In this document: one piece after another, positions 30,004 to 37,556 of the stretch | Layout: each line of letters opens with the position of its first letter | Position numbering within the stretch: the first letter of the stretch is position 1 | NCBI GenBank assembly: GCA_017883205.1 | Contig: JADGNZ010000010.1 | Coordinates: 62,001 to 126,000, forward strand | DNA from: Thermoanaerobaculia bacterium | Lineage (GTDB): Bacteria > Acidobacteriota > Thermoanaerobaculia > Gp7-AA8 | Direction of reading: 5' to 3' | DNA: 64,000 nucleotides | The notes under the pieces: generated by a model | Database searches by the model: none | Told to the model about the DNA's origin: nothing | The model's input: the letters and a program-made list of their open reading frames with translations, nothing else | Made by a program: the position numbers and the translations under genes

Positions 30004-32830
30004 ATGAGCGAAGAACAAACGACGGCACCACCGTCATTCGACTACGACGTCTTCATTTCCTATAGCAGCAAGGATAAGGCGTGGGTTCGGGGCGAGCTGC
30101 TGAAGCGGATCGAGAAAGCCGGCCTCCGCGTGTTCATCGACTATCGCGATTTCATACCAGGCGCCCCGAGTATCAAGGGAATCGAGCGGGGAGTGACGCG
30201 GTGCAAAAAGACGGTGCTCGCTCTGACACCCGACTACGTCGAGAGTGAATGGTGTGAGCTCGAAAACAACATGAGCCTGACCCGCAGTCCGGCCAATCGC
30301 GACGGGCGCAGGATTCCGTTGCTGAAGTCTCAATGCGAAACGCCGCTCCATGTCGCGCACCTGACTCAGATCGATTTCACGGTAGGCGCGGATCTTGACC
30401 TCGCGTGGCTCCAACTTCTCACCGCCCTCGGCGCGCCGCCGGAGCCGCCGCAGGTCGCGCTGCCATCGCGCGACGATTGGTATCTCGCCCATCCCTACGC
30501 CATGCCATCGAACTTCACCGGCCGCATGGCTGAGCGGAAGATGCTTACCGATTGGCTGACTAACGATGCCGCGCATCCGCTGCTCGTGCTCCGCGCGCTG
30601 GGCGGCTTCGGTAAGAGCGCCCTCGCCTGGCATTGGCTCCTGCACGACGTCGATCCCGCCAAATGGCCGCGAGTAGTATGGTGGAGTTTCTACGAGGTCG
30701 ACGCCAGCTTCGAGACCTTTGTCGCGAAGGCACGAGACTATCTGAATGATGGGCGGATTGATACCGGCGCAGTTTCTTCGCGCGATCAACTCGACATACT
30801 TCTGCAGAGACTCCATTCGCGCGGAACACTTCTGATCCTCGACGGCTTCGAGCGTGCCTTACGTGCTTTCGGCGGTCTCGAGGCTGCCTACCGGAACGAC
30901 GAAACCGTCGGCACCGAGAGTGGCGACCGCGACTGCATTTCGCCGCTGGCCGACAGGTTTCTGCGCGACGTGGCCAACCATCCCGCGATGCACGGCAGAG
31001 TCCTGCTCACCACTCGGCTACGGCCTTCGCCAATGGAGACGCGCAGCGCAATCCTCCTGCAGGGCTGCCGCGAGGAGGAACTTTTTTCAGCTCCAGCCAG
31101 CGGACGCAGTTACGTTTTTCCAAGCCCAGGGCATTCGCGGCGGACGCGCGGAGATTGAGGCTGCCTGCGAGCCGTATGGCTATCACCCGCTCAGCCTTGG
31201 TCTGTTGGCCGGTTTGATCGTGGGCGACCTCCAGCAATCGGGTGACATCGCTGCAGCGCAGCGGCTGGATGTGAGCGGCGACTTGGTTCAGCGGCAGCAT
31301 CACGTGCTCGAACAGGCATACGCGAGCCTTGGCCCAGCACGACAGAAGCTCCTCAGCCGCATCGCTTGCTTCCGCAGCCCCGTGAAGTACGACGCATTAA
31401 ATGCTCTGGCGGGGACCGGATCGGCGGAATTGAGCGCCGCAACTGCCAGTCGGGAGGAGCGGGGTCAGATCGCCGGAGAAGGCTCCATCGACGCCGATAT
31501 CCGGGATCTTGTTAGCCGCGGGCTCCTACATCGCGATCTAGAGAACAACAGATATGACCTCCATCCAATCGTGCGCCGCTACGCGTATGACCGGCTGGCA
31601 GCGCCGGACCGAACTGGCGCTCATATCCGGCTGCGGAATTACTTCGCCACAGTACCATGCTCGGACACCCTGCGTAGTCTGGACGACCTTGCGCCCATAG
31701 TAGAGCTGTATCACCACACGGTCCGAGCGGGGCAATTTGATGAAGGAAGCAAACTACTCCTCGACCGCCTTTGGAAGCCCTCGTACTTCCAATTTGGTGC
31801 ATACCAGTTACTCCTCGACCTGTTGCGGGCTCTTTTCCCGGACGGCGAAGAGCAACCGCCTTTTCTGAAGAACGAAAGTCTTCAGGCCTTGACGCTTGGC
31901 TTGATGGCAAGTTCCTATTGCCTTAGCGGTCGGCCCGCTCGCGCCGTGAAACTGATCGAGCGCTCTCTTGCAATTAGCGAGAAGCAAGGCCTTAGGCAGA
32001 ATGTTGCCATGGAATTGGCTTCCGTTTCTTCAGGCGCCTTACTGCCATTGGGGCGCCTGGGTGAAGCCGAGGCGAACCTGCGCCGAAGCGTCGCCATCTC
32101 CAAAGAGATTAGGGATGAGGTCCGCGAAGCGATTGGTCACGCGGACCTAGGACGATTACTGGTGTTTCGTGGCGCCTTGGCACAGTCGGACAGAGAACTG
32201 GCGAGAGCGCTTGAGCTTCTGGAAAAGCATAAGAGGATCCAGTGGCAGGGGGTGGTTTGGGCATACCGTGCTCACCGTGAACTCGTCCGCCTGCGGTTCA
32301 TGTCGCACAACAGCGTCGCGAAACCTCGGATGGCAAAGTTCACATTTGCTATTTCGTCGGCGCGCCGCGCTCTTGATCTGGCAGACAAGACGGCTGAATC
32401 AAAATATCCCTTTGAGCGTGACTACATCCGCGCCTACTGGCTGATGGGAGCGGCCTATTGCGTGGCCGGCAAAATGAATGAAGCCGAGTATCATCTCAAC
32501 GCAGCGCTACAGCGCTGTCGTCGCAACAACACCGTAGAAACCGAAGCCGAGATCCTCGTCGACCTAGCACGCCTTAGTATTGCCACCTCTGCGCCGGACG
32601 AGGCTAAGCGACTGGCCGAAGAGGCGCTGCTCATCACCGAACGCTGTGGTTACGTCATGCAAGGCGCCGACGCACATCTAGTGTTGGCGCAACTGGCGAA
32701 GGATCGGGACGATGCGAAGGCACTTCGCGGGCACGCCACCGAGGCGCTACGCCTCGCCACTTGCGACGGGCCACCGGATTACACCTACAAGGTGGCGTTT
32801 GACGAGGCGACTGCTCTAGTGAAGGGATGA
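30004..32830 (+). CDS. TIR - P-loop NTPase - TPR protein, split by a one-base frameshift
   Basis: Two overlapping frames (30004-31158 and one continuing to 32830) join at the T6 run 31082-31087; with one T fewer the reading passes smoothly from EEEL to FQLQPADAVTFF, giving about 941 residues. Order: TIR domain (residues 12-140: DYDVFISYSSKDKAW; SEWCELE with the probable NAD-cleaving E87), a STAND-type NTPase (Walker A GGFGKSA at 200-206, Walker B TLLILDGFE near 275-283, later HPLSLGLLAGL), a winged-helix-like LHPIVRRYAYDRL, then TPR-like helices to the end. TIR-NTPase-TPR proteins are NLR-like defence candidates: NAD depletion after sensing phage. The break may be a real mutation, a sequencing error in the homopolymer or slippage. 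Confidence 0.85.
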
Positions 32831-35159: not shown

Positions 35160-35259
35160 GTCCTGCCTGCTGACGGAATTGTAACCAGAGTGGCTGCCCA
35201 GAAAGCATGCAACCGGCGAATCCCCGAACGAAACGCCCTTCACCCGTGTTGTTAGCAAT

Positions 35260-35892
35260 ATGAAGAACAGTTGGACAGTCGGCGAATTGGCGGGCGAGCC
35301 TGACCGGCGCGAGGGGGGCGACCTCGCGGTGGCCGTCCATCGCTGCGAGCCGGGGGCGTTCGAGCGGCTCATCGATCGGTTCGAGCAACCGCTCTTCGGC
35401 TACGCCCACGGCATTCTGCAGAACGCGTTCGATGCGCAGGAGGTCGTGCAGGACGCGATGATGCGTGCGCACAAGGCTCTCACGCGGCAGTACGACGAGG
35501 CGCGGTGTGCGGCGCTGGCGTTGCGTCCGTGGCTTTTCAAGACCGTGCGCAATCTTTGTCTCAACAAGCGGCGCTCGAAACGCAGCTCGCTCGAACAACC
35601 GCTGGAGACGTTCGACGATGGCAGGATCGGGCCGTTCGTCAGTCTCGAGGGATCGGATCTCGAGCGGAAGGAAGAGATCGAGCTGCTGCGGCGGGCCATG
35701 GCCTTGCTGCCGGTCGACGCACGCGAGCTGATCGTGCTGCGGTTCATGGAGGAAATGTCCTACGCGGAGATCGCGAAGACGGTAGGCCAGTCCGAGGCGG
35801 CGCTTCGCGGCAAGGTGTTCCGGTCGCTCAAGCTGCTGCGCGATGCGCTGGAGAAACCGGCAACCCAGAAGGGGGTGGCGTATGCAATGTAG
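35260..35892 (+). CDS. ECF-type RNA polymerase sigma factor
   Basis: 210 residues. Sigma region 2 lies at about residues 30-105 (AFERLIDRFEQPLFGYAHGIL; DAQEVVQDAMMRAHKAL; WLFKTVRNLCLNKRR), region 4 at about 145-200 (ALLPVDARELIVLRFMEEMSYAEIAKTVG, the -35 binding helix-turn-helix). Regions 1 and 3 are missing, as in ECF factors. The next gene overlaps its last 11 bases and starts with a zinc anti-sigma motif, so the pair is co-translated. Its regulon is unknown; context suggests alkylation stress. Confidence 0.92.
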   Translation: MKNSWTVGELAGEPDRREGGDLAVAVHRCEPGAFERLIDRFEQPLFGYAHGILQNAFDAQEVVQDAMMRAHKALTRQYDEARCAALALRPWLFKTVRNLCLNKRRSKRSSLEQPLETFDDGRIGPFVSLEGSDLERKEEIELLRRAMALLPVDARELIVLRFMEEMSYAEIAKTVGQSEAALRGKVFRSLKLLRDALEKPATQKGVAYAM

Positions 35893-36757
35893 AACTGTAT
35901 TGACGAGGATCGATGCGCTGCGGACACGCGAGCTTGCCTCGATCGAGAAGACGGCGGTCGAGCAGCATCTACTCACCTGCTACAGCTGCGTCGAGTCGCA
36001 GGCCGACGTGGTCGACCTCGCGGATGCGATCAAATCACTGGCTGTCGTGCCGGAGCGTTCCTGCCGCGAGGCTGTGAAGGAGCAGATTGCCGATTCTTTC
36101 GACCGCGTCGGCGATGCGTGGGTCGCGTTCTCCAACGGCCGCATCCGCATGATTGCTGAAGCGGAATCGATCGATGACGTTCGCGAGGCGTACGCGAAAA
36201 AGCATGGCCGCGTTCTCGAGCCCGGCACCATCCCCGAACCCTTGCGGCGGCAGGTTGAAGCCGCGGTGAACGGAGAAGGGGTGGCGACGCCCAAGGTCGA
36301 TCTCGATGCCGCGAACGATCTAGAGCACGACGTGATGCAGACGCTCGTGCGCATTCCGCGCGGCGAAGTGCGCACCTACGCCTGGGTTGCCCGCCAGGCC
36401 GGCCGTCCTCGGGCCGTCCGCGCGGTAGCCAGCATCATCGCCCGCAACGCCGTTCCGTACGTCGTGCCGTGCCATCGCGTCGTGCCGTCATCGGGCGGCG
36501 TCGGCAACTACATCTTCGGCAGTGCCACGAAGCGCGCGTTGCTGGAGCGCGAAGGCGTGAATGTCGACGAGCTCGACGCGCTGGCGCGGGAGCACGTCCG
36601 CTACATCGGTTCCCGCACGACGCACATCTTCTGCTTCCCGACCTGCCGCGACGCAAAACGGATTCAAGAGAAGAACCGGATGCCCTTCCGCGATGCCGAC
36701 GACGCGATGGAGCACGGCTACCGTCCATGCCGCCACTGCCAGCCGGTGGCGGCATGA
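35882..36757 (+). CDS. Anti-sigma (ZAS) - O6-alkylguanine methyltransferase - Ada zinc domain fusion
   Basis: 291 residues. Residues 1-50 resemble a zinc anti-sigma domain with HxxxCxxC (H29, C33, C36 in EQHLLTCYSC). Residues about 75-235 are an MGMT domain: IPRGEVRTYAWVARQAGRP, then the acceptor cysteine C197 in VPCHRVV and GNYIFGSATKRALLEREG. Residues 236-290 form an Ada-type metal-binding domain (C251, C255, C283, C286 in THIFCFPTC and RPCRHCQP); in E. coli Ada the Cys equivalent to C251 accepts the methyl of DNA phosphotriesters. No AraC helix-turn-helix is present, and the domain order is inverted relative to Ada. Overlapping the sigma gene, it probably both repairs DNA and releases sigma when alkylated; that mechanism is inferred. 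Confidence 0.88.
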   Translation: MQCRTVLTRIDALRTRELASIEKTAVEQHLLTCYSCVESQADVVDLADAIKSLAVVPERSCREAVKEQIADSFDRVGDAWVAFSNGRIRMIAEAESIDDVREAYAKKHGRVLEPGTIPEPLRRQVEAAVNGEGVATPKVDLDAANDLEHDVMQTLVRIPRGEVRTYAWVARQAGRPRAVRAVASIIARNAVPYVVPCHRVVPSSGGVGNYIFGSATKRALLEREGVNVDELDALAREHVRYIGSRTTHIFCFPTCRDAKRIQEKNRMPFRDADDAMEHGYRPCRHCQPVAA

Positions 36758-36833: not shown

Positions 36834-37556
36834 ATGACTGCTTCAGCCTTCGAGCTTGACGTACCTACGAGACCGCGTACGCACGTGACCCCGCGACTGC
36901 AACCGCGACCCCAATTCGACGTCCACGCAATCTCCATCCCCGCGAAAACCTTCACCGGCGACTTCTGGTTCACGCATCGCGCCGCCGGCCGTCTCTGGTT
37001 CGCCCTCGGCGACGTAGCGGGGAAGGGACTCCCGGCCGCTCTGGTGATGGCGATGATCCAGGAAGAGCTGGAGCGCCGCATCACCTCGTGCGCGCGAGCA
37101 GGCTGCGATCCGGCGACGACGATGCAACGCCTGCACGAGTTTCTCAAACCGCTCCTGCCATCAAACCGCTTCGCCACCGCCGTCATCGGCTGGCTCGGCG
37201 ACGACGGCACGATGACGCTCGTCAACGCCGGCCACTGCCCGCCAATGCTCGTCCGCGCCGACGGCCGCATCGAAGAGATCGACTCGACTGGCCCGGTCGT
37301 CGGAATCATGGCGTCGTCGCGATGGATGTCGGCGACGTTCACGCTGAACGCAGGAGATCAGTTGATTCTCTACAGCGACGGCGTCATCGAAGCTGCGTCG
37401 CCGGACGGCGAGGAGTTCGGCGTCGAAGGGATCGTGCAAGCACTTCCGGCGTTGTCGTCTTCCCGCGACATCGCGTCCGCGATCCACGCCGCAGTCTCGC
37501 GACACGCCAACGGCGCGCGATACGACGATCTCACGCTGCTCGTGATCGGGCGGTAA
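36834..37556 (+). CDS. SpoIIE-type PP2C serine/threonine phosphatase
   Basis: 240 residues, a single phosphatase domain without sensor region. The family pattern is clear: AKTFTGDFWF, 'LWFALGDVAGKGLPAALVMAMIQ' (metal-binding D and G), NAGHCPPMLV, GDQLILYSDGVIEA and ARYDDLTLLVI. Such enzymes dephosphorylate anti-sigma antagonists in partner switching, but no such antagonist gene is visible. The gene lies 76 bases after the anti-sigma/MGMT fusion in the same direction; the gap contains a TCATTCCGAGCG...GAGGAATCCC repeat fragment. Confidence 0.88.
   Translation: MTASAFELDVPTRPRTHVTPRLQPRPQFDVHAISIPAKTFTGDFWFTHRAAGRLWFALGDVAGKGLPAALVMAMIQEELERRITSCARAGCDPATTMQRLHEFLKPLLPSNRFATAVIGWLGDDGTMTLVNAGHCPPMLVRADGRIEEIDSTGPVVGIMASSRWMSATFTLNAGDQLILYSDGVIEAASPDGEEFGVEGIVQALPALSSSRDIASAIHAAVSRHANGARYDDLTLLVIGR

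Follow-up and report, generated by a model that had tools for sequence, protein, structure and literature searches.

The window, a stretch of 64,000 nucleotides from the genome of a soil bacterium of the phylum Acidobacteriota (6.37 Mb in 105 contigs), contains a pair of overlapping genes that is read here, with a probability of about two in three, as an alkylation-damage switch, in which an ECF sigma factor would be held by an inhibitor that repair spends. The reading draws on domain architecture, conservation, gene pairing, a promoter motif, predicted targets and repair-gene neighbours, as seen in sequences and models; from these we infer that the fusion protein binds the sigma factor and lets go of it on alkylation, as well as which cysteine acts and what becomes of the protein once modified.

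In the undamaged cell, the N-terminal class I anti-sigma domain of a fusion protein would hold the ECF sigma factor, and the same protein would also patrol DNA. Cysteine C197 would take an alkyl group from O6-alkylguanine, and/or C251 would take a methyl group from a methyl phosphotriester. Transfer of an alkyl group to the acceptor cysteine is irreversible, as established for MGMT and Ada. The irreversibly modified fusion protein would change its conformation and stay on DNA or get degraded, and the sigma factor would thereby be freed. Free sigma factor would transcribe its own operon, restocking both the repair enzyme and the inhibitor, as well as a small set of protective genes. Since each inhibitor molecule could be used only once, the number of sigma molecules released would report the number of lesions, and fresh inhibitor would end the response.

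If this reading is true, bacteria can sense alkylated DNA by spending an inhibitor rather than by making an activator, a mechanism through which many Acidobacteriota, Chloroflexota and Actinomycetota might achieve an adaptive response. It would also provide a DNA-damage input for ECF sigma factors, assign a mechanism to an ECF group listed with MGMT neighbours, and give the first functional lead for DUF1203.

Gene layout and domains of the fusion protein

The gene of the ECF sigma factor (210 aa) is located at positions 35260–35892 of the forward strand, with the sigma2 and sigma4 regions at residues 37–108 and 141–193 of its product. The ORF matched Pfam families Sigma70_r2 (E 1.4e-10) and Sigma70_r4_2 (E 3.2e-11); the protein matched NCBIfam TIGR02937 (E 3.4e-24), and its relatives in the PDB are ECF factors such as SigE, SigH and SigW. 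The second gene, encoding the anti-sigma/alkyltransferase/Ada-Cys4 fusion protein of 291 aa, is located at 35882–36757 of the same strand; its start codon, ATG at 35882, lies within the end of the sigma gene, and the two genes overlap by 11 nt, in agreement with the overlap given in the first-pass annotation of this DNA. The Pfam scan showed the domain order anti-sigma domain, MGMT, Cys4, and no HTH family, AraC-type included, was detected by it in the fusion protein; the earlier remark that the AraC-type HTH is missing and that the order of domains is reversed relative to Ada is thus borne out. The AlphaFold2 model of the whole fusion protein has a mean pLDDT of 92.6 and a pTM of 0.76. Upstream of this locus, the window contains the start of a TIR-like protein (30004–31158) with a possible continuation in another frame (30854–32830); by eye, the region 30004–32830 may represent a frameshifted signalling NTPase.

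Residues 1–70 of the fusion protein (35882–36091, forward strand) were assigned to the class I anti-sigma domains by sequence profile, topology and structural neighbours, which supports the anti-sigma identity initially proposed for the HxxxCxxC domain. Helices are predicted in the AlphaFold2 model at residues 3–14, 20–32, 34–53 and 59–69, which is the class I layout of three bundled helices followed by a fourth; HxxxCxxC spans helices 2 and 3. The class I complexes known so far show helix 1 bound to sigma4 and helix 4 to sigma2 (PMC7406223); counterparts of both helices are present in the predicted domain of the window. The zf-HC2 profile matched residues 3–36 with 21.7 bits on the whole protein, against a cut-off of 22.2, and with 22.3 bits when only the N-terminal 80 aa were scanned; it was matched in 17 of the 18 family members. 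An alignment of 18 N-termini, with 32–75% identity to that of the window, showed that C3, D11, R14, E17, H29, C33 and C36 are invariant. Residue C3, absent from the initially named H29, C33 and C36, is a fourth candidate zinc ligand, and the four residues together possibly form a four-ligand zinc site.

A profile built from the 18 N-termini had anti-sigma factors as all of its top three PDB matches, namely RsiW (E 0.001), DdvA (E 0.027) and RslA (E 0.09). The domain modelled alone has a pLDDT of 85.8, and its six best structural neighbours are MucA, RslA, RskA, RseA and two ChrR entries, with Z from 6.6 to 3.6; Foldseek E-values for this lone domain of 73 aa exceed 1, and Z of 4–7 is weak by itself for a small helical bundle. 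The structural neighbours are accordingly supporting, not decisive, for the anti-sigma identity.

The O6-alkylguanine-DNA alkyltransferase domain occupies residues 71–226 (36092–36559, forward strand), with the match to Pfam DNA_binding_1 at 148–226 (E 1.6e-26); the MGMT fold was recognized by Foldseek on the model (1yfh, E 1.2e-9; 1sfe, E 9.5e-9). Its acceptor cysteine C197, located in PCHRV (codon 36470–36472, forward strand), as well as N189 of the Asn hinge, R180 of the Arg finger and E224, are invariant in 36 of 36 sequences. The Ada-type Cys4 domain, residues 241–288 (36602–36745, forward strand), contains C251, C255, C283 and C286, of which C251 (codon 36632–36634, forward strand) is the equivalent of C38 of E. 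coli Ada. All zinc-site and acceptor residues named in the first-pass annotation, from H29 to C286, are therefore present as described. Pfam Ada_Zn_binding was matched at residues 241–288 (E 7.6e-12) with the first 17 of 65 profile positions unmatched; the Cys4 region of the model corresponded to N-Ada structures 1u8b and 1wpk with a Foldseek probability of 1.0, and the four cysteines are conserved in 33 of 33 sequences having the Ada domain.

AraC-type Ada is absent from the window genome. Besides the fusion protein, Ada_Zn was matched there by two proteins, an SNase fusion and a PAS/DUF4388 protein. The former, a Staphylococcal-nuclease-like protein (L002, 937–1644; G000:C100), has a C-terminal Ada_Zn_binding-like segment without full Cys4; in the latter (L003, 1–1647; G000:C64) an Ada_Zn_binding-like segment is located at the end of the protein.

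Conservation of the sigma factor and fusion gene pair

None of the 18 further genomes from the family and order of the window lacks the fusion, which is full in 16 of them and partial, at contig edges, in two. In each of the 17 loci examined within the family and order, the ECF gene overlaps the fusion gene; the overlap measures 22 nt in one locus and 11 nt in the other 16. Beyond this group, an ECF gene was found immediately upstream in 76 of the 80 best-scoring relatives of the MGMT-Ada part, out of 587 confirmed, a count that describes the closest relatives and not all MGMTs; they represent at least six phyla, and the overlap is mostly ATGA, of 4 nt. The four relatives without an upstream ECF gene are two at contig ends (L127 and L175), one from Nostoc (L169) and one from Methylomirabilota (L182). 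Among control MGMT/Ada loci, a small set, an ECF neighbour was present in 0 of 10. The pairing that had been noticed in the window is thus conserved in relatives within and beyond its family and order. In the Ktedonobacteria MAG locus L118 (3719–6473), one ECF gene is followed by two consecutive MGMT-Ada genes and then AlkA.

The phosphatase gene that follows the module is conserved within the group of the window. This gene, encoding a SpoIIE-type PP2C phosphatase without a sensor domain (36834–37556, forward strand; Pfam SpoIIE, E 2.2e-43), is probably the third gene of the operon, and within the family and order the next gene on the same strand encodes a phosphatase of this type at 16 of 17 loci. 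Such constancy speaks for a reading in which the phosphatase supplies the true signal, as it does in partner-switching systems, while alkylation signals nothing. This is very improbable, since in other phyla no such phosphatase was noticed adjoining the module, the inhibitor domain belongs to class I and not to the kinase-type anti-sigma factors, and the neighbourhood showed no anti-anti-sigma gene.

The domains attached to the alkyltransferase vary among the wider relatives. Among the best 80 of 587 relatives, the Ada Cys4 is present in 74 and the HxxxCxxC domain in nine; what zinc-less relatives retain is a single helix-4-like segment, in which the position of window residue 58 is a conserved proline (33 of 36 sequences). 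Since the zinc domain is missing from most relatives although the ECF/MGMT-Ada pair is kept, zinc chemistry is not the core of the proposed switch, and the zinc-less relatives, if they work in the same way, would inhibit via another surface. Their composition suggests that the alkyl acceptor, and not the zinc site, may be the constant sensor. Homologues from Eremiobacterota (L184–L186) contain the zinc domain and MGMT without the Ada domain; C251 is therefore not needed in every member, and these homologues suggest that C197 may suffice. In the tree, a Latescibacterota sequence with a degenerate zinc site falls together with the zinc fusions found in Eremiobacterota and in the class to which the window belongs (support 86/91), while HRbin23 is placed apart, on a long branch.

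Promoter motif, predicted targets and neighbouring genes

A predicted autoregulatory ECF promoter, CGAACG-N14-CGTGTT, was found at 35225–35250 of the forward strand, with the -35 element at 35225–35230 and the -10 element at 35245–35250. It ends 9 nt before the start codon of the sigma gene, a distance at which the mRNA would be nearly leaderless. The pattern is located 9–11 nt before the sigma start in all family loci with upstream sequence, including three with TGTGTT at -10; in 19 genomes, the exact pattern occurs at 39 sites, versus 1 for the reversed control. A related pattern, [C/G]AAC-N15-[C/G]GTGTT, precedes an in-frame start codon of the sigma gene by 5–16 nt at 34 of 73 loci of several phyla, against 0.08 expected from mononucleotide shuffles, and the distance to the start is most often exactly 9 nt (20 of the 34 loci). 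The conserved motif indicates that the sigma operon is probably subject to positive autoregulation. A sigma factor autoregulated across phyla needs to be restrained by an inhibitor, and the operon shows no second gene for one. The motif is duplicated in G008:C82, close to where that contig ends, and the duplication could have arisen in assembly.

The upstream regions also bear on the possibility that the alkylated MGMT-Ada part binds DNA near the target promoters and delivers the sigma factor to RNA polymerase, with the N-terminal domain serving as a tether and not as an inhibitor. In E. coli, Ada in its methylated form sits at promoters and touches the sigma subunit of RNA polymerase (PMC4437013), and the lone helix-4-like segment of most relatives might tether rather than inhibit. 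However, no conserved box was noticed by eye beside the -35/-10 motif in the upstream regions of the family, and in the AlphaFold2 model the domain of the window has the whole four-helix layout of an inhibitor. Activation of this kind is thus unlikely, slightly more so than the redox-sensing alternative considered below, and sigma release from an inhibitor is preferred.

Of the family genomes, six have a gene of DUF1203 (PF06718), and in all six the motif directly precedes it, as an exact match in five and with one mismatch in one; the spacers of these promoter motifs differ in sequence among the six genomes. In six other genomes of the phylum, the DUF1203 gene adjoins a gene of the Ada/alkyltransferase type. 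The DUF1203 loci are L050 (around 1501–2070, G000:C41), L077–L081, L202, L204, L210, L212, L215 and L216. Position of the motif and gene neighbourhood make DUF1203 a likely alkylation-response gene and a predicted target of the sigma factor. In Nonomuraea, a related motif precedes orthologous genes, of an SDR oxidoreductase in four genomes and of an MFS transporter in two (L240, L243, L244, L247, L248 and L249); these predicted targets are not DNA-repair genes.

The looser motif was found at 11 sites of the window genome, versus 5 in the control. These sites do not bear out a larger regulon in this genome: a suitably positioned start follows the motif only at the sigma operon and at DUF1203, and most of the remaining sites fall inside genes. 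In two genomes (L061, G011:C555; L067, G008:C370) the motif is near the starts of genes of SAM-dependent methyltransferases, which was not found in other relatives; these genes are weak candidates for sigma targets.

Alkylation-repair genes are located just downstream of the module in nine loci of other phyla, namely AlkB in L114, L128, L129 and L166; AlkA/HhH-GPD in L118, L163 and L169; and Oxygenase-NA in L138 and L168. These neighbours argue against sensing of thiol or redox stress by the anti-sigma domain via C3, H29, C33 and C36, as in RsrA or ChrR, with the alkyltransferase-Ada part being co-made repair cargo and not a sensor. Redox sensing is common among zinc anti-sigma domains that are soluble (PMC7406223), and the four residues are invariant in the family, but the ECF/MGMT-Ada pair persists without the zinc domain in about 90% of the wider relatives (best 80 of 587), and the promoter motif is common to the zinc and zinc-less versions, so that the constant partner is the alkyl acceptor and not the zinc site. 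A redox input is accordingly considered unlikely, and alkylation remains the preferred signal.

Relation to known alkylation-response and anti-sigma systems

No study of an anti-sigma/MGMT/Ada fusion was found in the open-licence literature, and the architecture looks like a previously undescribed way of sensing methylated DNA and turning on protective genes. In a review of ECF groups, 6-O-methylguanine DNA methyltransferase is given as the conserved neighbour of ECF122, exemplified by Cellulomonas sp. Root930, with regulation listed as unknown and no anti-sigma factor (PMC8999054). The family of the window is similar to ECF122 in having an ECF sigma factor with this methyltransferase as a neighbour and differs, in a comparison made by description only, in that its methyltransferase bears a complete anti-sigma domain of class I; a C-terminal Ada Cys4, the promoter and the targets are unmentioned for ECF122 in that review. 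The zinc-less actinobacterial relatives may well be the ECF122 group, and they fit its description as lacking an anti-sigma factor.

Canonical Ada (PMC4437013) and Cada2 of Caulobacter (PMC10957082) are DNA-binding activators. Like E. coli Ada, the fusion combines MGMT and Cys4 phosphotriester acceptors in one protein, and sensing by irreversible self-alkylation with raised synthesis of the protein itself is proposed for it as well; in contrast to E. coli Ada, it has no AraC-type DNA-binding domain, its domain order is reversed, and release of the sigma factor is proposed instead of promoter binding. Cada2 is a comparable case in that the E. coli Ada design is replaced by another methylation-dependent switch (PMC10957082), but Cada2 acts as a transcription factor and has a DNA-binding domain of its own, in place of which the window fusion has the anti-sigma domain. 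With the zinc-type class I anti-sigma factors ChrR, RsrA, RslA and RsiW the fusion shares HxxxCxxC, the four-helix layout, a gene overlapping just after the ECF gene and, by prediction, an autoregulated promoter; the part attached to its anti-sigma domain is a DNA-alkyl acceptor, unlike the redox, cupin or membrane parts of those proteins.

A third design of the bacterial adaptive response, in which the one-shot alkyl acceptor would be the anti-sigma factor of an autoregulated ECF and repair would release sigma stoichiometrically, is somewhat favoured over its absence. It would extend to at least six phyla, and its zinc-less members, including those of Thermobifida, Nonomuraea and Pseudonocardia, would inhibit via the single helix-4-like segment or via the repair domains themselves. 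The wider family is directly testable in culturable carriers, namely Thermobifida fusca, Nonomuraea and Pseudonocardia. New observations are the conserved autoregulatory promoter, the predicted targets (DUF1203, and SDR and MFS in Nonomuraea) and the downstream neighbours AlkB, AlkA and Oxygenase-NA.
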